A stretch of 62,479 nucleotides of DNA from Halorubrum californiense DSM 19288 (GTDB lineage: Archaea; Halobacteriota; Halobacteria; Halobacteriales; Haloferacaceae), in NCBI RefSeq assembly GCF_000336875.1, contig NZ_AOJK01000024.1, positions 1 through 62,479 on the forward strand, given 5' to 3'. The translations under genes were made by a program, and so were the position numbers. Every line of letters begins with the position of its first letter. The stretch's first letter is position 1. The notes beneath the pieces are model-generated. The model ran no database searches and was not told where the DNA came from. It saw only the letters and a list, made by a program, of their open reading frames with translations. This document shows, piece after piece, positions 14,904 through 41,378 of the stretch.

Positions 14904-14914
14904 AGCCTAGGCCG
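14904..14914. repeat. Left attachment repeat (att core)
   Basis: AGCCTAGGCCG, an exact 11-bp copy of the 3' end of tRNA-Thr at 41307-41317, in the same orientation. It is interpreted as the displaced tRNA end left by integration. The sequences diverge immediately to the right (GGCTAT versus AGATTT). Confidence 0.65.
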
Positions 14915-14959
14915 GGCTATGCGCGATACGTTCAATAAGCCCTACCGCGTGTGAGAGCC

Positions 14960-16309
14960 ATGGCAGTTGACCCGGCACGGCAAATCGAAGTTCTTCGCGG
15001 AAAGCTTGAAGCTGGTGACCGGGGGCTGAACAAACCAGACCGGACTCTCATCCTCAGATTTCTCAAGCGCATGAACCGGAGACAAGAGAACTACGGTGAC
15101 TACCGCCGAATCAAACTACTCCGGCATGTCACTCGCATCAGCGAGCATACGCTGATGCCTACTCTTGAAAACTTCGCAGAGGCCCAGGAGACAGCGGTGG
15201 CAGACGTAGACTCTGATGGGGATGTCGAGACATTAATCGACAAGCTCGGCATTCTAGGCAGCGCACTTGAGTACCGTGCCGTGACCAACGCAATTGTTGA
15301 TTGGGTCAACGACACCTACGACAACGAAGAGACCAACCGGGACTACCGACAGGCAACGCGAACGTTTGGCCTGGAAATGTACAACGGAGATGACATCGCC
15401 CCATCTATCTCATGGGTCAGTTCGTCATATCCACGAAATTACGACCCTACTCCCTCACGAATCGATATCCTAGAGTGGGACGATGATATCAATCCGATGA
15501 TTCAAGCAGAAAGTAACGACAGAACGCGAGCTATGATGGCTCTCGCTTTCGATGCGGGGCCAAGGAGTGGAGAGCTCTATGATATGCGCGTCGGCGATAT
15601 TGATGATGCAAGTATTGGTCTTATTGCGAATGTGAATGGTAAGCGAGGTCGCAGGGACGTAGAACTGATTCTAAGCGTCCCGTACCTCAACCAATGGCTC
15701 CAGAAGCATCCAAAAAAGAAAGACAAGCAAGCGTACCTCTGGATACGTCGTGACGGGGAAGGGCGCATTAGCGAACGGAGAATGTACGATGCGCTACAAG
15801 CTGCAGCCAAACGGGTGGATGTCACAAAGAAGGTCACACCCACCGCATTTCGGAAAGCCAATGCTTGCTGGCTCGCGGAAAATGGGGTGAGTGAGCCAGA
15901 AATCAACTCTCGTCAGGGACGAAAGCAAGGAAGTAGACAGATTGCACGGTACGTTGCGGACTTTGCTCCAGGGAAGAATGTAGGCTATCGAAGAATGCTC
16001 GGTATTGAAGTTGAGGAAGAAGAACAGTCCGGCCCTGGGGTTCAGCTTTGCCCTCGGTGTGATAAAGAGACACCCGAAGACCCCGTCAACTACCCTCGCT
16101 GTGTCTTCTGTGGCCAGGCACTAACCTACGAAGCAATCGACCGCGCAGAGTCTCAGGACGACGCTGTCGTCGAGCGGTCGTTTGATGAGGAACCAGATTC
16201 GGATATGTCTGAAGGACTACGAGAATTGCGAGAATTGCTCAAAGAGTTCCCCGAACTCCGTGATTCATCTGACGCACTCGATGCGGACCCCGATTCTGTC
16301 GAGTCATAA
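14960..16309 (+). CDS. Tyrosine recombinase/integrase of the island
   Basis: A 449-aa phage-type integrase. The catalytic domain shows the first arginine in AFDAGPRSGELYDMR (about residue 201), the box II segment TPTAFRKANACWLAENGVS (arginine near 297; the usual histidine is replaced, as I recall is common in haloarchaeal integrases) and the tyrosine in RQIARYVADF near 330. A C-terminal extension carries four cysteines (LCPRCDKE, then YPRCVFCGQ) forming a probable zinc ribbon, followed by an acidic tail. The ATG at 14960 follows a TATA-like sequence near 14931. It probably catalysed insertion at the tRNA-Thr att site. Confidence 0.87.
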   Translation: MAVDPARQIEVLRGKLEAGDRGLNKPDRTLILRFLKRMNRRQENYGDYRRIKLLRHVTRISEHTLMPTLENFAEAQETAVADVDSDGDVETLIDKLGILGSALEYRAVTNAIVDWVNDTYDNEETNRDYRQATRTFGLEMYNGDDIAPSISWVSSSYPRNYDPTPSRIDILEWDDDINPMIQAESNDRTRAMMALAFDAGPRSGELYDMRVGDIDDASIGLIANVNGKRGRRDVELILSVPYLNQWLQKHPKKKDKQAYLWIRRDGEGRISERRMYDALQAAAKRVDVTKKVTPTAFRKANACWLAENGVSEPEINSRQGRKQGSRQIARYVADFAPGKNVGYRRMLGIEVEEEEQSGPGVQLCPRCDKETPEDPVNYPRCVFCGQALTYEAIDRAESQDDAVVERSFDEEPDSDMSEGLRELRELLKEFPELRDSSDALDADPDSVES

Positions 16310-19262: not shown

Positions 19263-20476
19263 TAGCACTCACCCCTCTTTGAGACCGTACCATCCAGAGT
19301 GGGTACCTGCTTACCGAAATCTTCCGGTCGTGATGCATCATAGAATTTTCTCGTGATTTTGTAGATGTGCTTGATTTGGCTCTCTGGGTCGGAGATGAGG
19401 TCATACGCGAGCGCAGTGCCACGGATGGCACGAGCAGGCGGCTTGCCGTCGAATCCATACCAGTCTCGTGCGAGGAGACACAAGCGAGCGAACTCTTCAT
19501 CCTCAAGCTCAGATAGAGAATTTGTGCCAGCTCTATCACAGGTGATGAACCCTTCTAGAACTGCGACTAGCATGAGCGAGTTCCCCCCTACATTATGTCG
19601 GTGGCAGTACCAGACTTCGCCTTCTACACCGAGGTTGTTTCCGTTTCTCGACCCGTGAACAGGGTGGGCACATCTATATCCACTTCCCTGCTGCCTGAGT
19701 TGAGCACCCGAACGCTGAAGAACATCGACCGAGTCTACGTCGAAATACGGACTTTGATTGCCCTGTTGAACAGTAGAACCCCGAGGTTTTGCCTGGCGCT
19801 CCTCAAGGTCACAGATGTCCTCGATAGTATCGATAGACTGGTCATACTCTCGTATTAATTCGTCTACAATCTTCTGCCTCCGCGCTGCCTTAGGTGGTGT
19901 TTCAGTTAGATGCTGACCGGTAGTGAGACAGACCCGGGCTCTGTCATACATCTCAATCTTTGGTACCTTTCCATCAACCCAGGTTTCTGTATCAAGCTCA
20001 GCCGAAAATGTGCTGCCTGGATACCAGTCAGGGATATTTGCCCGGACAAAGACATGGATTCCCTGGCCGCTGCCCGATATTTCAGCATAACTGCTGAGGC
20101 GACTGAGAAGGTCGACTACAATTGGATGGACCTCTCCGGTATCACTCTGTCGCACGTTGTCGAAGTCAACCATGAGAATCGATGCGTCACTCTCAAATGG
20201 AAGAATGTATGCGATACCAAGGTCACCGAGTTCACCTTGATGAGTGATATCTCTTGTTCCTGGATGGCCAGCCCAGTTCTTTGCGACTTCAAAAGCCCTC
20301 TCTGGACGCTCATTCTCGTCGAGATTCCCATTCCACCGGCAAGGATTGAGATGGCCCAACCACGGAGCCAGAGGGCGTTTGTCTGTTGTTGACCAGACTA
20401 CCCAGTTGGGTAGGTCTGTCATCGTTTCCTCATATACCGGTTCTTCTGCGACGCTGTTGAATTTTGTTTCACTCAT
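19262..20476 (-). CDS. PrimPol-type DNA primase with zinc motif
   Basis: A 404-aa primase-polymerase of the kind found on plasmids and viruses. The catalytic motifs are visible: D104 and D106 in ILMVDFDNV, and SGSGQGIHVFV (S135, H141). A C-terminal zinc motif (C269, H274, C291, H294; GYRCAHPVHG ... WYCHRHN) resembles CHC2-type primase fingers. It should lay down primers, and possibly extend DNA, for the island's own replication. It overlaps the upstream helicase by 4 nt and the downstream small gene by 1 nt, forming a replication operon with the gene at 22302-23222. Confidence 0.8.
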   Translation of the reverse strand: MSETKFNSVAEEPVYEETMTDLPNWVVWSTTDKRPLAPWLGHLNPCRWNGNLDENERPERAFEVAKNWAGHPGTRDITHQGELGDLGIAYILPFESDASILMVDFDNVRQSDTGEVHPIVVDLLSRLSSYAEISGSGQGIHVFVRANIPDWYPGSTFSAELDTETWVDGKVPKIEMYDRARVCLTTGQHLTETPPKAARRQKIVDELIREYDQSIDTIEDICDLEERQAKPRGSTVQQGNQSPYFDVDSVDVLQRSGAQLRQQGSGYRCAHPVHGSRNGNNLGVEGEVWYCHRHNVGGNSLMLVAVLEGFITCDRAGTNSLSELEDEEFARLCLLARDWYGFDGKPPARAIRGTALAYDLISDPESQIKHIYKITRKFYDASRPEDFGKQVPTLDGTVSKRGEC

Positions 20477-22302
20477 ACAATTTCACCCTGGTTAACGACA
20501 GTGCTCGGCAGATACGGTGTAATCCAGTCGAAGCCGCCGCGCACAATTACGAGATTTTGTGAACTCCGGGTGAGTCCAACATACCAAATCAAGTCTTCAG
20601 TAGCCTTTGCGCCGGGTCGGTGAAGCGATTGCGTCACTCGTGGGGGTACTCCATCATAGCAAATTGTAGTCTCTGCTTGACCCCCCTTTGTCGAATGGAT
20701 GGTAGACACCCGTGGCGTCGCTTCGAGCGACGTGATAGGCCTGTTTGTTCGCTGTAACGCATTCCGTAGTGCTATCTGCTCTTCTGGCTTTTCGAAGAAG
20801 CCACTAAGCCATTCAACGGCCCCGGGCCCGGTTGTATATCGAACCCAGAATTCTTTCGTGAGATGCCAGTCTAGTTTTTTCAGAGAGATGTTGTCATGTG
20901 GGTGTTTGTTCAGCATCTCCCAAACAGAATCCGTGGTCCTTCTAAACCGGTTCTTCCGTGAACGGATACACTTGGAATCTATCGCCCGGAGTAAGGTTCG
21001 TGCTTCATCGAGGGTCAGCGCCAGTTCTGAAGATTCAAGCTTTTCTGGAGCCCTGGAACCACCATCAGATTCGTCAGGGGATAGGCCTCGGATTTTCTGT
21101 AACGCGTTAAACAGCCGTGTTCGGCCCTCACCGACACCGGGCGTGTCCCATCCAAGCAATCCATTCTGTGACCGGAACAGAGCGCCAGCTTCCATCAGAC
21201 TCCAAGCGATTCCTAGACACTGTAGTCGTGTGCGCGCTATCAGAAGCGCATCGCCATCAGGTGCGTACTGCTTCAACAACCAGGGCGGACTGGATTTCCC
21301 TGTCGGAGCAATCCATTGACCTCTGTTGTACCCAAATCTTGGAGAGCGGACTTCTTCCAACGTCGCTTCGCGGGTATCCCTGACGTTGAGTTCGGGAGGC
21401 TCATGATGGCGGTCAAGTAGTCGACGAGCTGTCTGCCAGTGAAGTTCTGGAACACGGTGTGAGTCAGGTAAGACTACAGTTGGGAGTTCAATAGCGTCGA
21501 AGAACTTCGGTGAGGCTCCTTCGTGAGTGTTGACCGTCTGGTGAGGGTCACCAGCGATAACGACCACGTCGGCGTCTTTTCGCCACTCGTTAACCAACTT
21601 TGAGAGCAGCGGAAACATATCCTGCGCCTCATCAACGATTAACACCGGTGTCGACGGAGATTTTTTCTCGTCAAGTGCGTGCGTCAACTGGTCGGTGAAA
21701 TCAAACAATCCCTTTTCAGTTTTGTACTCTTCCCACTCTCTTTGGAACTCTCTGAGACTAGGGGCTCCACGCCAGTTTGAGCGATATTCGACGTATTGAG
21801 GTGCACGAGTTGGTTGAGAGATGGGTATTCGATTCTTTTTGAGCCACTCAATACAGTCAAATGCTAACTCCCCTATCGGAGTAATGTCTGAACGAGTCGC
21901 AGGGGCATCATAAGGACGAGAATAGACTTCTCGCATGAACTCTCGGCGGTGCTTAGTCTTCGCACTCTCCAGGTTACGGAATGCGCCCCCACTGATACGG
22001 CTCGCAATCCCATGGATTGTTCCGATGTATCGGGTCTCACCAGTTGTTGGCTTGTCCAACTCCTCAGAGCCGATGAATCCGTACTCCTCCAATCGACTCA
22101 AGATATCCGAGGAGAGCTCCTTGTGGTAGGTAACGAACGCTATGTCACTCAGAGAATATCCTGCCTCTAGCAAGCCCATCAGACGAAGTAACAGCTGAGT
22201 CGTCTTCCCCGAACCAGGCGGTCCGTGAATCTTGAGCGAACTCGTGGGAGGGTACTCGTCTTCGGCGAAGATTGGGTAGTTCGGCGGACTCTTCCGAGTC
22301 AT
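20473..22302 (-). CDS. SF1 (UvrD/Rep-like) DNA helicase
   Basis: A 609-aa superfamily 1 helicase. Walker A GPPGSGKTTQ at residues 27-36, motif II LIVDEAQD, motif III VVIAGDPHQTVN, motif V STIHSTKGGQAETTI and motif VI YVGLTRSSQNLVIV are in the UvrD/Rep order. It is shorter than chromosomal UvrD, as is usual for mobile-element helicases. It overlaps its upstream gene by 1 nt and the primase by 4 nt. The likely role is unwinding at the island's replication fork, paired with the PrimPol. Confidence 0.85.
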   Translation of the reverse strand: MTRKSPPNYPIFAEDEYPPTSSLKIHGPPGSGKTTQLLLRLMGLLEAGYSLSDIAFVTYHKELSSDILSRLEEYGFIGSEELDKPTTGETRYIGTIHGIASRISGGAFRNLESAKTKHRREFMREVYSRPYDAPATRSDITPIGELAFDCIEWLKKNRIPISQPTRAPQYVEYRSNWRGAPSLREFQREWEEYKTEKGLFDFTDQLTHALDEKKSPSTPVLIVDEAQDMFPLLSKLVNEWRKDADVVVIAGDPHQTVNTHEGASPKFFDAIELPTVVLPDSHRVPELHWQTARRLLDRHHEPPELNVRDTREATLEEVRSPRFGYNRGQWIAPTGKSSPPWLLKQYAPDGDALLIARTRLQCLGIAWSLMEAGALFRSQNGLLGWDTPGVGEGRTRLFNALQKIRGLSPDESDGGSRAPEKLESSELALTLDEARTLLRAIDSKCIRSRKNRFRRTTDSVWEMLNKHPHDNISLKKLDWHLTKEFWVRYTTGPGAVEWLSGFFEKPEEQIALRNALQRTNRPITSLEATPRVSTIHSTKGGQAETTICYDGVPPRVTQSLHRPGAKATEDLIWYVGLTRSSQNLVIVRGGFDWITPYLPSTVVNQGEIV

Positions 22303-23876: not shown

Positions 23877-24599
23877 CTACAAATCATCAGGAGTGAAGAT
23901 GAGTTGTACGCTATTCTCTTTGAGCCACCGATTGTGTTCTTTGTATGAGGAGTCATATTCCTCAACGTAGGACCAAAATTCGTCTGTATGGTTTTGCTCA
24001 CGGAGATGCGCGAGTTCATGAATGACCACGTATTCCGCAACATCAGGTGGTGCCATCAGCAATCGCCAGTTGAGCCCAAGTGTTCCCGTCGTTGAGCAAC
24101 TTCCCCACTTCGTTCGTTGATTCCGGACTTCGATTTTATCGTACTCAACATCCATGCGCTCGGCATATTGCTCGATACGATTGGTAAAGAAGTCCCGTGC
24201 CTGACGCCGATAGAAATTTTCGAGAACTTGCTTGACCGACGACTGCTTGACTGCACTCTCGCGAAGGCGAATCGTATCCTCGTCTACACCATTTTTTGTG
24301 CGTGATTCTATGACCAATTCACGGTCCTTGCCGAGAAGGGGAAAGGACTCACCAACCTCAAACGTCCGGTCGGGGATTTGCTCTCGATAAGCCTCATAAC
24401 TTCGTTGCTTGTCTACCACCCACGCTGCGTTTTCCCTAAGAATTTTGCTTGGCTGTATATCCTCGTTTTGAGGAATAACAACCGTCACACCGTGTATATC
24501 CACATCGATTCGCGGCTTGCTCGCAGCTGAACTCCGCCGGACTTCGAACTCCACGGAGTCACCCAGCAAGTCAATCATCCGTCGTTGCGGTTTAGCCAT
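23877..24599 (-). CDS. DUF45/YgjP-type zinc metalloprotease in RM operon
   Basis: A 240-aa protein of the YgjP/DUF45 (SprT-like) group: the signature WGSCSTTGTLGLNWRLLMAP is followed by HELAH (about residues 194-198) and a downstream NHTDEFW, the family zinc site. Members of this family often lie beside type I restriction genes, and their substrate is not established. The ATG at 24599 is used, not the open frame further upstream, because it overlaps the hsdR stop by 8 nt exactly as the other genes of this operon overlap. Confidence 0.8.
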   Translation of the reverse strand: MAKPQRRMIDLLGDSVEFEVRRSSAASKPRIDVDIHGVTVVIPQNEDIQPSKILRENAAWVVDKQRSYEAYREQIPDRTFEVGESFPLLGKDRELVIESRTKNGVDEDTIRLRESAVKQSSVKQVLENFYRRQARDFFTNRIEQYAERMDVEYDKIEVRNQRTKWGSCSTTGTLGLNWRLLMAPPDVAEYVVIHELAHLREQNHTDEFWSYVEEYDSSYKEHNRWLKENSVQLIFTPDDL

Positions 24600-27552
24600 C
24601 GTTCTGAACCAGGTAATCCCGTACGGCGTCAACAAACTCGTCATTGTCTCTGATGAGGTGGCCAAGGTCGTTCTCTACCACCAGCACGTCCAGCAAGAGT
24701 CGCTCAATTTCAGCGATGGTCTGTCGATTTGTTCTCCAGCCGGGATAGTCACGGTCAACACGCTCGCGGAACTGCGTCACAATCTCCTCTGCGACAGCCT
24801 CCGCCTGCTCATCGGACTCTATGGTCTCGGGCGTCTCCTCGGTCAAGTGCGTGTAGATAGCGAACTCAGCGGCGTCCATCCCTTGCTCATCGGCTTCCTT
24901 CTCAACCTTCAACACTTCCTCCTCCACCGATTTCAACGCCTCCACCGCCTCAGGGTCGCCTATCTGTTCGCCGTGCCACCGTTCAACAATGTCGGTGACG
25001 CGCTCACTCAGTCGCTTGTACCGTGGGTTCTGATTCTCTCGCGGGTGAAGATGCTCGCGGGTGGCGTGGGCAATCTGAGAGGCTTTCACGCCGGGGTTGT
25101 CGAGTCCCTCTACCTCTTCAAGGAACTCCTCCCCGAGTTTGTATGTCGGGAAGTCCCGTTTGATTTCGCCAATCTCAACGTGGTCGTTGATTATCTCCCG
25201 TGTCTTTTCTCGCATCTCCTCCTCGGGGTCGTCCTCTCCCGAGGTGGTGCGCTTGAACGCGACGTGAATCCGACTCAGCCACTTGTAGTCGCGCTCAATG
25301 CCCTCACTCACCAGCCGACCGTCCGGGGCGACCGCTTCGTAGAGATTCTGGAGTCGGCGGAACTGCTGTTTGAACTCGCGGCGTTCAGGATGGGTACTCA
25401 CGCGCTCAACGGCGTCGTAGGTCGCCTCCTGTGTGTCGTCCTTCGGAATCCCGTCGAAAATGTCCATCACCCGTTCAATTTGCTCCACGAGGTCGTCGTA
25501 TAGCTCGTCCTTGTCACGGGCGGCGTACGCTTTCGTCTCGGCGTCGTAGTCAAGTGCCTCGTCGATGTTCTCGAAGACACCCTGGAAGTCCACAATCTCG
25601 CCATTCTCCTTACCTGCGGCAGGCCGGTTCGTCCGAGCGATGGCCTGCATTAAATTGTGGTTCTTGAGGTTCCGGTCGAGATACATAGTCTTCAGAATCG
25701 GGGCGTCGAACCCCGTCAGGAGCATATTGTGAACGACGAGGAGTTTCGGGTTCGACTCCTGCTTAAACGCCTTGACAATGCTGTCACGTTCCTCAGAGTC
25801 GGTGTGGAACTGCTCGATGAGGTCGGAATCATCCTTCGTAGCAGTATAGAGAACTTCCACCTCCTCGTCGCCCCGCCGCTGGCGGAGACGCTCGCCGTAC
25901 ATCGCCGCGGACCGGCGACTCGGAGTCACGACCATCCCTTTCCAGTCGTTCGGCGCGACGTGGTCGTCGTAATGCGCGTCGATTTCTTCCACGGCGCGGT
26001 CAACACGCGGTTCGAGTTCCGCGAGCGTCCTCGCCGTGGCGTTCTCGCGGATGGCCTCGCGTTTCTGGTCGGTCGTCATCCCGCGGAACTCCTGCTCGAA
26101 CTCCTCATCGAGTCCCGCCTCGTCAATCTCCCACTCCATTTCGTGCCGAAGTGTGAAGTACACAGGTAGAATCAGGCCGTCGTCAATCCCCTGCTTGACC
26201 GTGTAGCGGTGGAGGTAGTCCTCACCCTCGGGGGAGAACTCGCGGAACGTGTTGCGGTCTTCATGGCGTTCGCCCTCGCGAACGGGAGTTCCAGTGAATC
26301 CGAAATGCGTACAGTCGGGGAGAGCCGCGTCGAGACGACTTCCGAGGTCGGCCTCCATGAACCGGTGTGCCTCGTCTGACATTACGATGACCTCGTCGTT
26401 CCCCTGTACGCCGGGGTCAACGTCCTCGAACTTCTGGATGGTCGTTAGGACGAGTTGACTGCTGCCCTCCTCGATAAGCCGTTGGAGGGGGTCGATGCTT
26501 TCGGCCTCCGTCCACTGCTCCAAGGAGAGGTTCGCCAGTTGGTCGCGCATCTGCGAATTGAGCTTATCGGTGTCCACGATGATGAACACCTGCGGGTTGC
26601 GCGTGACCTCAGGACGCGAGAGAAGGTTCTCAGCGGCATAGAGCATCGTGAAAGACTTCCCCGACCCTTGTGTATGCCAGATGAGTCCTCGGTCGTATTC
26701 GCTCTCCGCGACGCGGTCGAGAATACTATTCACCGCGTAGTACTGCATATATCTCGGGACGATTTTCGCGTCGCCACCGGCTTGCTGTTCGTAAAACACG
26801 AAGTGCTTGAGCAGGTCGAGAAGTGTCGCGGGATTACAGAGAGCCTTGATGGCCTGCCTCGTCGCGTTGTCATCCGCGAACTCCTCCGGAGCGTCGTTCC
26901 ATGGCTCATAGAACTCACGAGGAGCGCCGACCGCCCCATACCGCAGTTCCATCGTATCGGCGGCGACGTTGAACAGACCGGGGACGAACAAGCGCGGTAC
27001 GTCCTCCTCGTAGGCCACTAGGTCGCTCACCGCGTCGTGCCAGTCGTTATCCTGCGCGACGCTTTTCAGTTCCATCGTCACGAGCGGAATCCCGTTGACG
27101 AACAGGGTCACGTCCGGGCGAATGGTAGTCTCGCGGGAGACGGAGAACTGATTCACCGCGTGGAAGCGATTGTTCTCGGGGTTCTCGTGGTCAATGAGGT
27201 CAACGTAGATTGTGTCGCTCGCCCCGTCATCGCGCTGGATATTGAACGACTTCCCCTTTGTGAGTAACCGATGAAACGCGCGGTTACCGTCCATCAGATG
27301 TTCCACGTCGAGGTCGCGCTTGAGCGAGGAGACAAACTTGTCCACGTTCTTCTCGGTCACGTTATCATTCAACGCGACGACCTGCTCGGCGAGGAGGTTC
27401 CAGTAGACGACTTCGCGGTTGCTCCGTTCGTAGGCTTCATCGAGGACGCCAGCACCCCGCCCGCCGTCCAATCCATGTGTCTCCCATCCGACGCCGTCGA
27501 GCCACGAGAGAAGTGAGCGTTCGACGCCCCCCTCGGACGGGAGACTAACCAT
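24592..27552 (-). CDS. hsdR: Type I restriction endonuclease subunit R
   Basis: A 986-aa motor and nuclease subunit. The N-terminal nuclease motif is present (RPDVTLFVNGIPLVTMELKS: D147, E161, K163). The SF2 translocase follows, with Walker A QGSGKS near 294-299, DEAH box (MSDEAHRFM) and the AIARTNRP motif VI region. The C-terminal part is helical. It cleaves DNA after HsdM/HsdS recognise unmethylated sites. The start overlaps the hsdS stop by 8 nt. No frameshift or motif loss is visible, so restriction should be functional. Confidence 0.92.
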   Translation of the reverse strand: MVSLPSEGGVERSLLSWLDGVGWETHGLDGGRGAGVLDEAYERSNREVVYWNLLAEQVVALNDNVTEKNVDKFVSSLKRDLDVEHLMDGNRAFHRLLTKGKSFNIQRDDGASDTIYVDLIDHENPENNRFHAVNQFSVSRETTIRPDVTLFVNGIPLVTMELKSVAQDNDWHDAVSDLVAYEEDVPRLFVPGLFNVAADTMELRYGAVGAPREFYEPWNDAPEEFADDNATRQAIKALCNPATLLDLLKHFVFYEQQAGGDAKIVPRYMQYYAVNSILDRVAESEYDRGLIWHTQGSGKSFTMLYAAENLLSRPEVTRNPQVFIIVDTDKLNSQMRDQLANLSLEQWTEAESIDPLQRLIEEGSSQLVLTTIQKFEDVDPGVQGNDEVIVMSDEAHRFMEADLGSRLDAALPDCTHFGFTGTPVREGERHEDRNTFREFSPEGEDYLHRYTVKQGIDDGLILPVYFTLRHEMEWEIDEAGLDEEFEQEFRGMTTDQKREAIRENATARTLAELEPRVDRAVEEIDAHYDDHVAPNDWKGMVVTPSRRSAAMYGERLRQRRGDEEVEVLYTATKDDSDLIEQFHTDSEERDSIVKAFKQESNPKLLVVHNMLLTGFDAPILKTMYLDRNLKNHNLMQAIARTNRPAAGKENGEIVDFQGVFENIDEALDYDAETKAYAARDKDELYDDLVEQIERVMDIFDGIPKDDTQEATYDAVERVSTHPERREFKQQFRRLQNLYEAVAPDGRLVSEGIERDYKWLSRIHVAFKRTTSGEDDPEEEMREKTREIINDHVEIGEIKRDFPTYKLGEEFLEEVEGLDNPGVKASQIAHATREHLHPRENQNPRYKRLSERVTDIVERWHGEQIGDPEAVEALKSVEEEVLKVEKEADEQGMDAAEFAIYTHLTEETPETIESDEQAEAVAEEIVTQFRERVDRDYPGWRTNRQTIAEIERLLLDVLVVENDLGHLIRDNDEFVDAVRDYLVQNDG

Positions 27553-28858
27553 ACTGTGCGATTTTCTCGGGAACCTCTATGTTAGTGTCGGTTGTTCGGA
27601 CTGTTCCCGAGAGGAGGTCTTGCATTAGACCACGCTTGAGACGCTTGAGTTGAGACTTATACTGCTCATTCGTCTCAATTTGCGAGTCAATACTACTGAG
27701 TCGGTCTACAATCTCCTTTTGTTCCTCAATAGGTGGGAGTGGAAGCTTTACTTGCTGAATACTGTTGGCGTTAATATTTGCTTGGCTGACCCCCTTCGTG
27801 GCAAAATCCATCATCCTGTTTTGTGCCTCTGAAGAATTCATGTAATAGTTCAAATAATGAGAGTCAGCCTTTGTGTTTGTTTGTAGTCGGACAAGGTAAG
27901 ATGCGAAGACGTGGTCGCCTTCAAGTTCGTAGATGCCAGTTTTCCCTACAAGTTCGAGACTGTTTGTTCTATTGAATAGAATATCCCCCTTCTCAACTCG
28001 GTATTTTTCAAACTCGTCGTCATCAAGGTCGATATATTTCAGAGGCTCGTCGACCATCTTCCCGTTCTCTATATTGTTCATCCGAAAGATGGGGTACTGA
28101 CCTTCCTCAGACAAACTTTCTGAAATGCCGTACTGCGCTGTGTGAACCACATCGCCAATGCTCGCGACCGACCAATGTGGAGGTATTTCACCGACTGGCG
28201 TTGACTGATTGTCTTCAAAATTCTTGTGACGCCCATGAAATAGGTCCTGAATTAACGCCTTCTTGACAGAGTGAGTTTGCTCAATAATTTCTTTAGTCTT
28301 CTCAATCGCCTGGTCAGCTGTGTAGAGTACGGTGGCGATTTTGCGCTGTTCGGAGAGGGGTGGTGTTGGGATTTTATGTTTCTTTACAATTCCCTTTCCT
28401 AAGTTCGCCTGAGTTGTTTGACGGCTTAGACTCGCTAATTTTGGCTGCGTATTGTCTATTGCATAGCGGAGGTAGAGTACGTTATCCTCGTCAGCATCCC
28501 AGAGTCCAAGAATTCCCTGATTTGTCGCCACACGGCTGTGAACTATTGCTGTTTCAGCGAGACTTCCGTAGATAGTCATTAGAAGCGTTCCCGAATCGAA
28601 CGCTCTCGTACTTGTTTCATCGAGTGCTTGCTCGGTGATAAAGTCCTTAGCCGTTGTAACACCGTCACCTTGTTGCTCGTTTAAGTCTTCAATTTTGACA
28701 AACGGTATATTCCCACCGTAATACCCATCTACTCCTTTTTTTGGGGTACCACCGCTGTAGATTGAGTCAAAAACATCACCGAGGCGTTTCTCAACCCACG
28801 CAGAACCCTCTTCGGCATCAGAATCTGTGTAATCCGTGAGGTCAATTTGCTCACTCAT
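27545..28858 (-). CDS. hsdS: Type I restriction specificity subunit S
   Basis: A 437-aa specificity subunit with two target-recognition domains. TRD1 begins WVEKRLGDVFDSIYSGGTPK; the central conserved helix contains PLSEQRKIATVLYTADQAIE; TRD2 begins HWSVASIGDVVHTAQYG; and the distal helix contains PPIEEQKEIVDRLSSIDSQIE. The two PP(L/I)xEQ-type repeats mark the spacer helices that set the gap in the split recognition site. The base composition is AT-richer than hsdM and hsdR, consistent with separate acquisition of TRDs. It overlaps hsdM by 8 nt. Confidence 0.9.
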   Translation of the reverse strand: MSEQIDLTDYTDSDAEEGSAWVEKRLGDVFDSIYSGGTPKKGVDGYYGGNIPFVKIEDLNEQQGDGVTTAKDFITEQALDETSTRAFDSGTLLMTIYGSLAETAIVHSRVATNQGILGLWDADEDNVLYLRYAIDNTQPKLASLSRQTTQANLGKGIVKKHKIPTPPLSEQRKIATVLYTADQAIEKTKEIIEQTHSVKKALIQDLFHGRHKNFEDNQSTPVGEIPPHWSVASIGDVVHTAQYGISESLSEEGQYPIFRMNNIENGKMVDEPLKYIDLDDDEFEKYRVEKGDILFNRTNSLELVGKTGIYELEGDHVFASYLVRLQTNTKADSHYLNYYMNSSEAQNRMMDFATKGVSQANINANSIQQVKLPLPPIEEQKEIVDRLSSIDSQIETNEQYKSQLKRLKRGLMQDLLSGTVRTTDTNIEVPEKIAQYG

Positions 28859-30356
28859 AACTCAGCGCCTCCATATGCTGGCTCATTGTCTCCTCAATCT
28901 CCCCCCGTTTGTCCTGTAACTCGCGTAACTTCGCCAGTTCCTTTCCTACGTCGATATCTTCCTCAGGCTCCGTTGTATCGACGTATAGTGCGATATTGAG
29001 GTTGTAGTCATTCTCTCGAATTTCATCAAGTGACACCGTGCGGCTCACGCGCTCCTCCGTCGTCCATTCGCGAAAGTTCCCAACGATGTGGTCGAGTCCG
29101 TCTCTGGTGAGTTCGTTCTGGTTCGACAACTCCTCGTAGAACGCCTCGTCTGCAGCGTGGATAAACTGTACTTCGTCCTCACGCTCAGCAGGCTTGTTCG
29201 TATTCAACACGAGAATGGCGGAGGGAATCGAGTTGTTCTGGAACAGATTTTCGGGGAGTCCAACGATGGCCTCCACCATATCCTCTTCAAGCATATGCGT
29301 CCGATAGCGCCCCTCGTGCTTACGAAACAGTACGCCGTGGGGAATAACGATAGCAGCCTTGCCCCCCGCCTCATCGCGCTCGGGACGCCTGAGCTGCTTC
29401 GCCATGTGCATGATGAAGGCGTAGTCGCCTCGGTCGGCACGCGGCAATTTCTCGTGCCAGTTGAAGCGTTCGTAGGGGTCATCCTGAAGACCGTCTTTGT
29501 CCCAGTCAGCGGAGAATGGGAAGTTTGCCAGCACACGGTCGAAGCGCGTGAGTTCGTTACTCTCCTCGTTAGTGAACGCAGGCTTCGAAAGGGAGTCTTC
29601 ACGCTCAATCTCCCCATCCAACCCGTGAATGGAGAGGTTCATTTTCGCAATCGCAGCGATGTCCGGATTAACCTCTTGGCCGGTGAAGGTCATCTTCGTG
29701 GAGTCGCCACCTTGCTCCTCCCGATAGTATCGTGCGGCCTCGATGAGCATCCCACCAGAGCCGACAGTCGGGTCGTGGAATGTCATCCCATCCTCGAACT
29801 CGTCGATGAGCCGAACGCAGAGATTGACGATGTGAGGTGGCGTAAAGAACTGTCCACCGGACTTACCCTCTTCTTCTGCAAATTGACGCACTAGGTCCAT
29901 GTACGCCTCTCCGAGCATGTCCGGTGGAATACTGTCGCGGTCGAGGTCGTGTGTAGAGAGGTGTTCGACGAGCCGTCCCAGGCGGTCATCGTCAAGCGCG
30001 TCAGCGTCGATATAGTCCGCACGGAACACTCCCTGAAGCTCCGGATTCTCGTCGGTAACGGCATCGAACGCTTCGTTCAGTGCCTGGTCCACGTTGTCGC
30101 TGACTGCGCGCAGGTCATCCCATAGATATCCTTCGGGGACGACCGGTACGTCGTAGAGGTTCGGACGACGTGCGAGTTCCTCGTCACCGTACTTCTCGAC
30201 GTTCTCTTCGTACTGCTTCTCAAACTCATCCGAGACTGCCTTGTAGTAGACGAGTGGGAGAATGAATTCCTTGTAGTCAGTTGGGTCGACTGCGTCACGG
30301 ATTATGTCCGCGCACTTGAAAAGGTGTGAATCGAGTTCCTGTAGGGAGAGGGTCAT
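28851..30356 (-). CDS. hsdM: Type I DNA methyltransferase subunit M
   Basis: A 501-aa N6-adenine methyltransferase subunit. The SAM-binding region (FHDPTVGSGGMLIEAARYY) and the following helix are clear. The catalytic motif IV reads NFPF (VLANFPFSADW, about residues 276-279) where the family usual is NPPF or NPPY. The N-terminal helical domain (HLFKCADIIRDAVDPTDYKE) is typical. The ATG at 30356 lies downstream of a TATA-like TTTTTACGG. It modifies host DNA at the sites recognised by HsdS and is first in the four-gene operon. Confidence 0.9.
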   Translation of the reverse strand: MTLSLQELDSHLFKCADIIRDAVDPTDYKEFILPLVYYKAVSDEFEKQYEENVEKYGDEELARRPNLYDVPVVPEGYLWDDLRAVSDNVDQALNEAFDAVTDENPELQGVFRADYIDADALDDDRLGRLVEHLSTHDLDRDSIPPDMLGEAYMDLVRQFAEEEGKSGGQFFTPPHIVNLCVRLIDEFEDGMTFHDPTVGSGGMLIEAARYYREEQGGDSTKMTFTGQEVNPDIAAIAKMNLSIHGLDGEIEREDSLSKPAFTNEESNELTRFDRVLANFPFSADWDKDGLQDDPYERFNWHEKLPRADRGDYAFIMHMAKQLRRPERDEAGGKAAIVIPHGVLFRKHEGRYRTHMLEEDMVEAIVGLPENLFQNNSIPSAILVLNTNKPAEREDEVQFIHAADEAFYEELSNQNELTRDGLDHIVGNFREWTTEERVSRTVSLDEIRENDYNLNIALYVDTTEPEEDIDVGKELAKLRELQDKRGEIEETMSQHMEALSYE

Positions 30357-31156: not shown

Positions 31157-31186
31157 TGAGTGCTACCTTACAATTCGATTGAACAA

Positions 31187-31792
31187 ATGCCCTCGGCCGA
31201 CAATCCCTCACTCGCTCTAATTCAAAGGGTTACTCAATCCTATCTTAGTCGCGATATCACGCGTGAAGAAATGATTAACGTGAGAACCGCTATCAGCCAA
31301 CATCTACTGCCCTTGATGGATAATGAGTACAAGATATTCGTTCTTGGGAGCTACGGCGACGGTGAGAAGCAATATCTTGAGACAGTTCAAGAGATTCTAA
31401 GAGATGAGTACCGAAACCGGTGTTCCAGTCGAGCACGTGTCTTTCTAATGGACGACGTTCCTGGAGACGATATATGGATTAATCTGGGTATAAAATTCCG
31501 TCTGTTAGCGGATATCTCTGATTCGATTGTGGGAGTCGCCGAGAACGACCAAGGCGGGTTTATGTTTGAACAGGGAATTATCGCCACACACGAAGACTAC
31601 GTTCGGAAAACACACCTTTTGAAGCGTCAATATGCCTCTAAAAAAGAGGAGCACTCACACTATTCTGCGATGCAAGCCTCAGGCTTATTTGATGAACTGA
31701 GAGCTGACAACCGTCTATTCGAGTGGAGCGATACACAGGGGCTCGCCGCTTCAACAATCGCTGCGTTTGAACGTATTGAGAAGGGCGATTAA
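31187..31792 (+). CDS. Nucleoside-deoxyribosyltransferase-like (DUF7509-like) protein
   Basis: A 201-aa protein with an N-terminal helical region and then an alpha/beta core: KIFVLGSYGDGEKQYLETV, ARVFLMDDVPGD, LADISDSIVGVAENDQGGF, MFEQGIIA. The strand order and the D...GGFMFEQG element (E128) resemble the nucleoside deoxyribosyltransferase/TIR-like superfamily, and I recall similar haloarchaeal proteins as DUF7509. Such folds cleave N-glycosidic bonds, which fits an NAD- or nucleotide-depleting defence effector, but activity is not shown. The ATG at 31187 fits the TATA spacing better than a GTG at 31160. Confidence 0.55.
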   Translation: MPSADNPSLALIQRVTQSYLSRDITREEMINVRTAISQHLLPLMDNEYKIFVLGSYGDGEKQYLETVQEILRDEYRNRCSSRARVFLMDDVPGDDIWINLGIKFRLLADISDSIVGVAENDQGGFMFEQGIIATHEDYVRKTHLLKRQYASKKEEHSHYSAMQASGLFDELRADNRLFEWSDTQGLAASTIAAFERIEKGD

Positions 31793-31890: not shown

Positions 31891-32160
31891 ATGACTGTTT
31901 ACTCAATCAGCTACGACCTCCACGACCCAGGACAGGACTACGAAGAATTACATGAAGAAATCAAGGATTTCGGTGCTTGGTGGCACCACCTCGAATCAAC
32001 ATGGCTAGTCGACACGTCTAGCACCGCATCAAAGATTGTGGACGAATTAAGCCCACATCTCGACTCAAACGACGAGCTACTCGTTACTCGTTTGTCCGGC
32101 AGTTGGGCTTCGTGGGGTATCAATGATAGTGGGAACGACTGGTTGCACGAACACCTCTGA
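31891..32160 (+). CDS. Stand-alone Cas2/SinR-like protein
   Basis: An 89-aa protein beginning MTVYSISYDLHDPGQDYEEL: a first beta strand ending in the D of YDL, then a helix and the WWHHLESTWLVDT strand pair, as in the ferredoxin fold of Cas2, VapD and SinR-type proteins. In Cas2 the equivalent first-strand aspartate binds metal. No cas1, CRISPR repeats or adaptation genes are in the window, so it is probably a free-standing nuclease-like or toxin-like protein. It is on the same strand as, and 98 bp after, the NDT-like gene, with its own TATA-like TTTTATCC at 31860. Confidence 0.6.
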   Translation: MTVYSISYDLHDPGQDYEELHEEIKDFGAWWHHLESTWLVDTSSTASKIVDELSPHLDSNDELLVTRLSGSWASWGINDSGNDWLHEHL

Positions 32161-32228: not shown

Positions 32229-32990
32229 TCAGGTAAGAATATTTTCCGTAACGGCACTAAGATAGGATTTGAGACATGCTACTGCCCTTGGGCCCACCCG
32301 CTCAGCGGCCTTCGGCTCTAAAATCATCAGAGCAAATGCGTCCGCAAGGAGCTCCTCTTCGCTCAGTCGATATGACGAATACTCTCCCTCGCCTTCTGGT
32401 ATTGTTCCTCTCAACCGCTCAGATAGCCGAATGGCATCCTCATGACCACCGTCTGTGTCGAATACGCTCTCCTTTGTTTCGTCGAAGCCCGCTCTCTCAC
32501 TCTTTTGTCCAACACCTATATCGAAGGCATGCCCAAGCTCGTGTGCGACTGTCGGCCCCTTTCTCGCTCCTAAGAAGTCATCGGAGTCAGTATCTATGAC
32601 GACTCGCTTCGGGACTGGGTCAAAATACCCCATCACATTCTCCTCATCAATACCTCCATCCAGCTCAGATTCATTTACATATCCACTTTGCTCTGCATAT
32701 TCAAGCACTCGAATTGCTCGATTGAGGAGCTCTGAGTGGGGAATCGTATCTACATGAGGAAAGTCTAGTTCCCAGATATCGTCTTCCCAAGCGTCTACAT
32801 CAAGAGTGATTGGCTCATTTGAGCTCTCGTCCTCCTGCTGGTCAACATCTGGTCTGTTTGCGTGAATAGCCTCAGCGTTACTTTTGTTTTCCCCGCCACC
32901 TCGTAGAGTGTATGGTGTGGGATTATCACCCAATTGCTCAAATCCGTCTACTATTCTAATAAATGATTCTGACTTCTGGAATAAATACAT
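32229..32990 (-). CDS. ImmA/IrrE-like metallopeptidase
   Basis: A 253-aa zincin. HELGH at residues 150-154 (TVAHELGHAFD) is followed about 55 residues later by EEELLADAFALMI, the third zinc ligand region in ImmA/IrrE peptidases. The N-terminal 75 residues are acidic and probably disordered. Its ATG directly follows the stop codon of the HTH gene upstream, so the pair is one operon. In bacteria, ImmA-type proteases cleave an HTH repressor to induce a mobile element or a damage response; the same logic is inferred here. Confidence 0.7.
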   Translation of the reverse strand: MYLFQKSESFIRIVDGFEQLGDNPTPYTLRGGGENKSNAEAIHANRPDVDQQEDESSNEPITLDVDAWEDDIWELDFPHVDTIPHSELLNRAIRVLEYAEQSGYVNESELDGGIDEENVMGYFDPVPKRVVIDTDSDDFLGARKGPTVAHELGHAFDIGVGQKSERAGFDETKESVFDTDGGHEDAIRLSERLRGTIPEGEGEYSSYRLSEEELLADAFALMILEPKAAERVGPRAVACLKSYLSAVTENILT

Positions 32991-33533
32991 TTAATGGGCG
33001 TTTGGAGCCGTTTCGTCGCTGTTCTGTGTGATATCAGAATCGCCTTTCTCCTCAATCTGCTTTACACGTGCGACGAACGTCTTCGCAGCGTCCGCTTTTC
33101 CTGTCGCATCGTACCGATGTGAATCGACTGTACTCGGTTCAATGTTCAGAATCTGAGCTATTTCACTGCGGGTGAAGTTGGCCCTGTGTAACGCGAGTAC
33201 GTGGGCCTGCTGTATCCCAATCATATCGGAGTCGTGTAAGGCCCAGGCGTTATGAAGCGCACGGCCAGTACGGGAGAGTTCAACGTTAGGAGTCGAGGTC
33301 TTGAATTTGTGAACTTGTTCAGACATTGCCCCACCCTCAGTACCGGGAGAGTAGCGCGGACTGAACCGCTCATCCTGTTCATTGTACGTACCGACGAACA
33401 GGCCCCCTCTCCAATGGATGTAGTACGCAGGCATTCCGTTCATTTCTGACTCCTCGTCAGCTATCCATCCAATAAAAACAGCCTGCTGGTCCGGAATGAA
33501 GCTAGGAAACTCCGGTTCCTCATTTTCGGTCAT
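32991..33533 (-). CDS. HTH regulator paired with ImmA-like protease
   Basis: A 180-aa protein. Residues about 112-150 contain a LuxR/sigma-region-4-like helix-turn-helix (HRANFTRSEIAQILNIEPST, then VDSHRYDATGKADAAK). The N-terminal 90 residues (AVFIGWIADEESEMNGMPAY) look like a beta-rich sensor domain. The stop codon abuts the ATG of the metallopeptidase gene. The arrangement recalls ImmR/ImmA or DdrO/IrrE pairs, although the HTH is not the XRE type usual there. It could be the master repressor of the island. Confidence 0.65.
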   Translation of the reverse strand: MTENEEPEFPSFIPDQQAVFIGWIADEESEMNGMPAYYIHWRGGLFVGTYNEQDERFSPRYSPGTEGGAMSEQVHKFKTSTPNVELSRTGRALHNAWALHDSDMIGIQQAHVLALHRANFTRSEIAQILNIEPSTVDSHRYDATGKADAAKTFVARVKQIEEKGDSDITQNSDETAPNAH

Positions 33534-33783: not shown

Positions 33784-34434
33784 ATGTCAGGAAAGGTCTT
33801 CATTTCCCATTCTCGTCGGGATGAGGAGTTGGTAGACCGCATAGACCGTGCGCTGGATTTGGTCGGGTATGACACGCTGATTTACGAATGGGAGAACATA
33901 CCAGAAGAAGAACCAGACCGTGAGGCAATCAAACAGAAGATGAGTGAGTGTGACGCTTGCTTTGTCTTCCCAACACCAACGGTCCGAGAACAAAAAGTCA
34001 CTCCCGCCTGGCTCATTGCTGAATCGTCTATCGCTGGCGACCAGAATATTCCGACAGCGATATTCAAAGAGCAAGGCGATAGCTACGAGATTAATTTCCC
34101 GTATTTTGACATTTTGGTAGTCTACGACAGGGCAGAGTTGCCTCTTCAGCTTCAGGAACGAATTGAAGAGCTGATGGACGCTCAAGGGAATGAGGCGGCA
34201 GGCGCAATAGGTGGTGGGCTACTTGGAGTGGCCGCAGTGGGAACCGGTGGAGCCGCCTTGGTCGGCGCTCTTATCGGGGCCGCGTTGTCCTCTGGTAGTG
34301 ATACTGCACCACAGGTTCAATGTCCTGCCTGTGAATGGGCGTTCACGTATTGGGGGGACAGCGACGAGTTTCGTTGCCCTCATTGCCACACCGAGATGGA
34401 TTCGACATCACACGCCATCGGCGAGGAAGATTGA
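33784..34434 (+). CDS. TIR-transmembrane-zinc ribbon protein
   Basis: A 216-aa protein with three visible parts. Residues 3-115 are a TIR domain (KVFISHSRRDEELVDRIDRA; DACFVFPTPT; AWLIAESSIAG with E80 as the likely catalytic glutamate). Residues 138-170 are a glycine/alanine-rich transmembrane or glycine-zipper segment (GGGLLGVAAVGTGGAALVGA). The C-terminus is a zinc ribbon (C180, C183, C198, C201). TIR domains in prokaryotic defence hydrolyse NAD+ or make cyclic ADP-ribose signals. The ATG at 33784 directly gives the family start. The HEPN-type gene follows after 35 bp on the same strand. Confidence 0.8.
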   Translation: MSGKVFISHSRRDEELVDRIDRALDLVGYDTLIYEWENIPEEEPDREAIKQKMSECDACFVFPTPTVREQKVTPAWLIAESSIAGDQNIPTAIFKEQGDSYEINFPYFDILVVYDRAELPLQLQERIEELMDAQGNEAAGAIGGGLLGVAAVGTGGAALVGALIGAALSSGSDTAPQVQCPACEWAFTYWGDSDEFRCPHCHTEMDSTSHAIGEED

Positions 34435-34469
34435 GTTCCGGGTCAGTCAAAGGAGCCACACAATATCGC

Positions 34470-35276
34470 ATGAAATCATCCGTTGGCGTAATTGAACGAT
34501 ACGTTGAGCAATTAGAAGAAGATGCAGAACATATCATTTCGAAGATTGAACGGCTCTATCATGAGGCAGAGAAGGGTTATGAACTTACTCGTAGCAATCA
34601 CCCAGTCGGTGCCGCACAAAGGGGAGATGCAAAGCAGATTTGGCAAGACCCTGAAGGGGAAACAAAGAACCTCCAAGATGAGCTCAGAGAGGAATACGAA
34701 TCCTGGTACGCACAAGCCGAAGAACTCGTTTCAACGCATCTTCCTCAACGAACCGAAGAGTTCGAGAGACGGCGTACTGACGTGAAAAAATATATCAAAT
34801 TGGAAAAGAATGCGAAATTTGACCCGGAGAGGTACGTGAACAGCGCATCAGATTATTTTGCTGAGCAACGGAATATAGTCAAGGCAGTACCGGGGAAGGT
34901 TGAAGCTGAAAAACTAAGCCTTCGTCAACAAATCTCAGATACTTTCTCGAAAGATGAGATACAGCAAGCTCGGGAACTCCTTGATGAGGAACTCATGCGA
35001 GCGGCCGGAGTGCTCGCCGGTGTAGCTCTGGAGCGGCACCTTCAGATAGAGTGCGATGAGGCGGAGCTTGGGTACGAACATAATGATGGAATTGCGAGTT
35101 TGGCTCAAACTCTATATGAGGCGGATGAAATCAACAGTACCACACTGAGTAGTCTTGAGACGCTGGGCCAAATCAGAAACGACTGTGCTCATGCGAATCA
35201 GCAGGGGCCGAACGAACACAAAGTTAGGAAACTAATCGATGATACCGACGATTATATTCGAGGCCGTGGAGTATAG
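34470..35276 (+). CDS. HEPN-type protein paired with TIR gene
   Basis: A 268-aa protein. The N-terminal half is a long charged helical, probably coiled-coil, region (residues 5-170). The C-terminal 95 residues form a HEPN-like bundle: LLDEELMRAAGVLAGVALER, then SSLETLGQIRNDCAHANQQG with the R236-x4-H241 motif that marks HEPN ribonucleases. It starts 35 bp after the TIR gene and has no separate TATA box in that gap that I can see, so co-transcription is likely. RNA cleavage in an abortive-infection response is inferred; RNA targets are unknown. Confidence 0.7.
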   Translation: MKSSVGVIERYVEQLEEDAEHIISKIERLYHEAEKGYELTRSNHPVGAAQRGDAKQIWQDPEGETKNLQDELREEYESWYAQAEELVSTHLPQRTEEFERRRTDVKKYIKLEKNAKFDPERYVNSASDYFAEQRNIVKAVPGKVEAEKLSLRQQISDTFSKDEIQQARELLDEELMRAAGVLAGVALERHLQIECDEAELGYEHNDGIASLAQTLYEADEINSTTLSSLETLGQIRNDCAHANQQGPNEHKVRKLIDDTDDYIRGRGV

Positions 35277-41306: not shown

Positions 41307-41317
41307 AGCCTAGGCCG
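41307..41317. repeat. Right attachment repeat inside tRNA-Thr 3' end
   Basis: AGCCTAGGCCG, identical to 14904-14914. It includes the discriminator, the 3' acceptor strand and the start of the T stem. The element supplies this copy and so keeps the tRNA intact. Confidence 0.7.
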
Positions 41318-41378
41318 AGATTTGAACTCGGGGTCTCGTCCTTACCAAGGACGCGCTTTACCGCTAAGCTACCCAGGC
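41307..41378 (-). tRNA. tRNA-Thr(GGT), integration target of the island
   Basis: Full cloverleaf on the minus strand: acceptor GCCTGGG with CCTAGGC (one G-T pair), D stem GCTT/AAGC, anticodon stem CGTCC/GGACG with loop TTGGTAA (anticodon GGT, reading ACC), T stem CCGAG/CTCGG with loop TTCAAAT. The unpaired discriminator is T, as expected for archaeal tRNA-Thr. No encoded CCA. The last 11 nt (41307-41317) are repeated at 14904-14914, the far end of the island. Confidence 0.95.

Follow-up and report, generated by a model that had tools for sequence, protein, structure and literature searches.

Gene organization and genomic context

The two genes considered here lie side by side on the forward strand of contig NZ_AOJK01000024.1 of Halorubrum californiense DSM 19288 (GCF_000336875.1), and all positions refer to the window, i.e., the whole stretch of DNA analysed, positions 1 to 62,479 of this contig. 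The upstream gene (ATG at 33784, stop codon ending at 34434) encodes a TIR protein and the downstream gene (ATG at 34470, stop codon ending at 35276) encodes a HEPN-domain protein, with 35 bp between them (34435-34469); each is present in a single copy in the host genome. The original prediction, which was made from the sequence alone, had described two same-strand genes with this spacing and had named E80 (within AWLIAESS), C180, C183, C198 and C201 in the first protein and R236 and H241 in the second; both ORFs are found at this place and all of the named residues are correct. The ORF finder also offers longer alternatives, starting at GTG 33745 for the TIR gene and at ATG 34335 for the HEPN gene, but the shorter starts are preferred because the HEPN homologues share the same alignment start position. 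The sequence AAGGAG sits 14 bases before the HEPN start. The 35 bp gap permits co-transcription, which by itself is no proof of a joint function. The features of the locus and of its surroundings are as follows.

14904..14914, strand not assigned: probable left attachment site AGCCTAGGCCG, an 11-mer that copies the tRNA-Thr 3′ end
14951..16309, + strand: tyrosine integrase of the island (PF00589, E = 1.8e-14)
33784..34434, + strand: TIR, Gly-rich hydrophobic stretch and zinc ribbon protein, 216 aa (Pfam, family alignment, AF2 model)
33784..34185, + strand: TIR domain, residues 1-134, with predicted catalytic E80 at 34021-34023 (W76-x3-E80 aligns with WxxxE)
34204..34293, + strand: Gly-rich hydrophobic stretch that may span the membrane, residues 141-170 (Kyte-Doolittle)
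34321..34386, + strand: zinc ribbon C180-x2-C183-x14-C198-x2-C201 (four cysteines invariant in the family)
34470..35276, + strand: HEPN-domain protein, 268 aa (family alignment, Pfam HEPN in relatives, AF2 model)
34470..34913, + strand: N-terminal helical bundle, residues 1-148 (helices 4-41, 48-58, 64-90, 92-110 and 119-138 in the model)
34914..35267, + strand: HEPN domain, residues 149-266, with R236 at 35175-35177 and H241 at 35190-35192 (VIA-align to HEPN structures)
41307..41378, − strand: tRNA-Thr, right island edge (ARAGORN; GC drop)

From roughly 15 to 41 kb of the window the GC content falls from ~0.70 to ~0.50. This drop, together with the tRNA-Thr gene, the repeated 11-mer and the tyrosine integrase, identifies the region as an integrated element. 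The island also encodes a complete type I restriction system (24592-30356) and a serine recombinase, and thus the earlier description of the surroundings as an integrated, defence-type island is borne out by the tRNA-Thr site, the integrase and the restriction system. Divergent from the TIR gene, with ~250 bp between, lie an HTH gene and the gene of a protease bearing HELGH (ImmA/IrrE-like) at 32229-33533 on the − strand; a homologue of the protease occurs in 3 of the 117 sampled genomes of the order, the host counted, and a second relative is encoded elsewhere in the host genome (C20).

Three further island genes were observed. A 210 aa protein (31160-31792, + strand) appears TIR/deoxyribosyltransferase-like by eye (KIFVLGSYG...GGFMFEQGII), with no match in Pfam or NCBIfam, and it is followed by an 89 aa Cas2-like ORF (31891-32160, + strand; PADLOC Cas2d, E = 0.02). 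A UvrD-like helicase (20473-22302, − strand) shows a weak similarity to GajB (PADLOC, E = 1e-19), and no GajA-like gene was noticed adjoining it.

The TIR protein

The presence of a TIR domain is indicated by a match to Pfam TIR_2 (PF13676) over residues 5-81 (E = 2e-8; 35.2 bits vs. a cut-off of 28). In an alignment of five sequences from five lineages, F6, S8-H9-S10, D13, W76, E80 and the four zinc-ribbon cysteines are invariant, and an alignment with solved structures places W76-x3-E80 on the WxxxE motif of AbTir and of one related bacterial TIR. The AF2 models of the TIR and HEPN proteins, both of which were built from shallow alignments (of 5 and 6 sequences, with the window and relatives from viral and genome contigs as input), reach pLDDT values of 70.5 and 80.7, respectively. 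The best Foldseek match of the TIR model is SpbK (9phb, E = 4e-4), VIA-align gives a Z of about 10 for the TIR domains of plants, bacteria and SARM1, and the structural matches include SpbK, SPARTA, AbTir and SARM1. The nucleotide hydrolase DNPH1, which scores slightly above the TIR domains in VIA-align, was set aside, as the sequence evidence favours TIR. The TIR assignment with E80 as its key residue is thus supported by the Pfam match, the invariant WxxxE glutamate and the modelled fold. The C-terminal zinc ribbon likewise stands, given that its four cysteines are invariant across the family; in the model this part forms short strands at 177-206, mostly with pLDDT 79-88.

The original prediction of a glycine-rich membrane segment fared less clearly. 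The 19-residue Kyte-Doolittle mean reaches 2.03 at residues 146-164, which is enough for a membrane helix. However, residues 141-170 are modelled with low confidence (pLDDT 33-37), and one relative (L083) has no Gly-rich hydrophobic stretch, so anchoring of the TIR protein at the membrane through this stretch is a plausible prediction.

Methanophagales (L052/L082), two further euryarchaeal records (L080 and L083), another genome of the same phylum (L053) and bacterium HR33 (L081) encode relatives that combine a TIR domain with a zinc ribbon, and a broken or partial copy occurs in Alkanophagales (L087). The family is small but recurring, spanning several euryarchaeal lineages and one bacterium, and the Gly-rich stretch is usual in it. 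The TIR profile matches 11 of 393 genomes of the phylum, several of these matches being partial or weak, and the broad haloarchaeal matches to it (22 of 392) fall mostly on the zinc ribbon alone. No match to the TIR protein was found in the plasmid, phage and viral-contig collections, suggesting that plasmids and phages in the collections searched do not commonly carry it.

The HEPN protein

The HEPN protein itself matches PF18735 with E = 0.002, which lies under the Pfam cut-off, and four of its relatives match PF05168 HEPN (best 2.9e-7). A search of the HEPN profile against PDB sequences gave only coiled-coil and other chance matches. In structure comparison, residues 149-266 superimpose on the HEPN protein AF_0298 (2hsb) with a VIA-align Z of 14.4 and an rmsd of 2.4 over 115 residues, and they also match HepT, the Csm6 HEPN domain and AbiV; VIA-align Z is inflated for helical folds, but HEPN structures nevertheless dominate the matches to this part. 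In an alignment of 22 members, R236-x4-H241 is at least 90% conserved, with H241 absent in L066 and L073 and R236 absent in L045. The earlier call of a HEPN-like domain carrying this motif is thus upheld by both the fold and the conservation.

For the region that precedes it, which had been described as a long coiled coil, the model shows more than a simple coiled coil: long helices pack into a bundle in which several residues (Y76, W79, Y80, F98 and Q133) are conserved. Residues 1-148 match generic helical bundles only, and Pfam reveals no nucleotide-sensor domain (for example SLOG, CARF or macro) in the protein.

The HEPN family is broad and largely orphan. It occurs in 46 of the 393 sampled genomes of the phylum, in 7 of 170 genomes of the host's family, in a Paraburkholderia record of the plasmid collection and on nine viral contigs, several of which have phage-type neighbours and none of which carries a TIR gene. 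On proteobacterial phage contigs (L102-L108) the HEPN-family gene is probably cargo, and in several of these it lies just upstream of an adenine-methylase-like gene and a lysozyme-like gene.

Conservation of the pairing

The original prediction had joined the two genes into one system, in which a membrane sensor feeds an RNase. An adjacency search in other genomes had been set beforehand as the test able to refute it, and the result was 0 of 42 HEPN loci with the TIR protein's own family profile and 0 of about 20 distinct TIR loci with the HEPN profile. When the genes around the HEPN homologues were clustered, only lineage-specific synteny was seen, with no partner recurring across lineages, and when 51 genes near the TIR relatives were scanned with Pfam, no HEPN stood among the 25 commonest of 116 matched families, which by itself is weak evidence. 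The two families are thus nearly never neighbours elsewhere, and a conserved TIR-HEPN two-gene system was rejected on this ground. We note that a pairing specific to haloarchaea would be poorly sampled here, since there are only about six full-length TIR relatives.

A broader TIR profile did find TIR genes of another kind, the ThsB type, no more than about 5 kb from the HEPN gene at 2 of the 42 HEPN loci. At L072, a ThsB-type TIR gene (PF08937, E = 2e-17) lies two genes upstream of the HEPN gene on the same strand, whereas at L037 ThsB-type TIR genes lie 3-5 kb away. These TIR proteins belong to a different family and are non-adjacent, which suits shared defence neighbourhoods; a looser functional link of the HEPN family to TIR proteins in general is possible. 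At L072 (3976-6145, − strand) the ThsB-type TIR gene, an overlapping 187 aa gene of no assigned family and the HEPN gene may form a small operon.

Proposed functions and alternative explanations

The two genes are probably independent of each other, i.e., two predicted abortive-infection genes that adjoin in the cargo of the tRNA-Thr-integrated island. This reading follows from the different spread of the two families (46 of 393 genomes for HEPN vs. 11 of 393 for the TIR profile), from their never being direct neighbours at the other loci examined and from the phage HEPN genes that occur without a TIR gene. By analogy with SpbK, an NADase which acts via clustering/self-association in abortive infection (PMC12847820), and with the archaeal TIR protein TcpA, a known NADase (PMC10937652), cleavage of NAD+ upon clustering is the most likely activity of the TIR protein; TIR NADase activity requires a conserved glutamate (PMC10937652). 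It would most likely be an NAD-consuming enzyme kept near the membrane by its Gly-rich stretch, in which the zinc ribbon may sense an infection cue (a nucleic acid or a viral protein). Sensing would then cluster the TIR domains so that an active site forms around E80, NAD+ would be cleaved and cell growth would stop. The HEPN protein would most likely be a stand-alone RNase, given that the R-x4-H motif is the predicted RNase site of HEPN proteins (PMC3710099): its N-terminal bundle may restrain it or sense a cue, and its C-terminal HEPN domain may, as a dimer, cut RNA using R236 and H241.

Independence has to be set against the gene order itself, as two same-strand genes 35 bp apart resemble many true operons, and against the ThsB-type TIR genes at L072 and L037. 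The same spacing, the AAGGAG before the HEPN start, the TIR gene two genes upstream at L072 and a TIR-HEPN(DUF4145) fusion on record in Thiorhodococcus drewsii (PMC3710099) would fit a genuine two-gene system, in which a membrane TIR sensor switches on the HEPN RNase through an NAD-derived signal or direct binding, as in the ThsB-ThsA pair of Thoeris. However, the families are not neighbours at any other examined locus, and Pfam recognises no nucleotide-sensor domain in the HEPN protein, so we regard such a system as unlikely. More doubtful still is a specific relay limited to a few haloarchaea, in which zinc-ribbon sensing at the membrane would yield an NAD-derived product (cyclic ADP-ribose or deNAMed NAD-capped RNA) that activates the HEPN RNase.

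It is also rather unlikely, slightly more so than a genuine two-gene system, that one or both proteins are not defence enzymes at all, the TIR domain serving as a scaffold while the HEPN protein binds RNA or has a regulatory role. NAD cleavage is not universal among TIR proteins, the motif is lost in some HEPN families (PMC3710099) and three relatives here lack R236 or H241; however, few residues in the two families are conserved as strongly as E80 and R236/H241. The divergent HTH/protease pair, with its HELGH motif and ~250 bp spacing, could be taken to control the TIR and HEPN genes for island maintenance rather than virus defence, but homologues of the protease are rare in the order, and we give this explanation very little credence. 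Independent abortive-infection genes thus remain the preferred reading.

Comparison with known systems

The locus is best described as a new TIR protein variant with a likewise new HEPN superfamily member next to it. A word-based literature search found no description of the TIR / Gly-rich / zinc-ribbon layout, whereas the combination of TIR and HEPN is not unprecedented, given the recorded fusion. If true, it adds a small TIR / Gly-rich / zinc-ribbon family across euryarchaeal lineages and one bacterium, as well as a widespread HEPN family of which the libraries scanned (Pfam, NCBIfam, PADLOC and PHROGs) capture very little, and both families are candidates for archaeal defence. Of greater importance would be a new paired system, but the comparative evidence gives no support for it.

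Among described systems, the Bacillus subtilis ICEBs1 protein SpbK (PMC12847820) likewise has a TIR domain on an integrated mobile element and acts as a single-gene NADase. However, the TIR domain of SpbK lies at the C terminus (residues 111-266) and no zinc ribbon is reported, whereas here the TIR domain is N-terminal and is followed by the Gly-rich stretch and the zinc ribbon. The TIR domain is also shared with Thoeris ThsB, to whose models the protein has a weak match (E = 2e-5), and with the CBASS/Pycsar TIR effectors (PF10137, E = 4.6e-4, under the cut-off). No ThsA effector, nucleotide cyclase or SAVED partner was found by Pfam and PADLOC among ten neighbouring proteins, and the lack of ThsA and of a cyclase among them argues against assigning the locus to Thoeris or CBASS/Pycsar. 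The HEPN protein shares the fold of residues 149-266 and the R-x4-H motif with HepT/HEPN-MNT toxins, AbiV and Csm6 HEPN, but it has its own N-terminal helical bundle and its sequence relation to them lies under the Pfam cut-off. No MNT nucleotidyltransferase was found beside the HEPN gene among its neighbours, which argues against a locus of the HEPN-MNT type, and no CARF domain of the Csm6 kind was found in the protein.

A likeness is also seen in haloarchaeal TIR-zinc-ribbon proteins encoded next to tpiA (L132-L135), which are of similar length (about 200-208 aa) and also have a TIR domain followed by C-terminal cysteine pairs. They differ in that the hydrophobic stretch is absent, the loop separating the cysteine pairs is longer and the neighbourhood, which looks near-housekeeping, is a repeated one. 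The triosephosphate isomerase gene lies upstream in L134 and L135, and a similar zinc-binding gene lies upstream in L132, L134 and L135. At another locus (L137:5438-9930), the gene of a small TIR protein that ends in a hydrophobic tail immediately precedes those of an OLD-type ATPase nuclease and a UvrD helicase, which form a Gabija-like pair.
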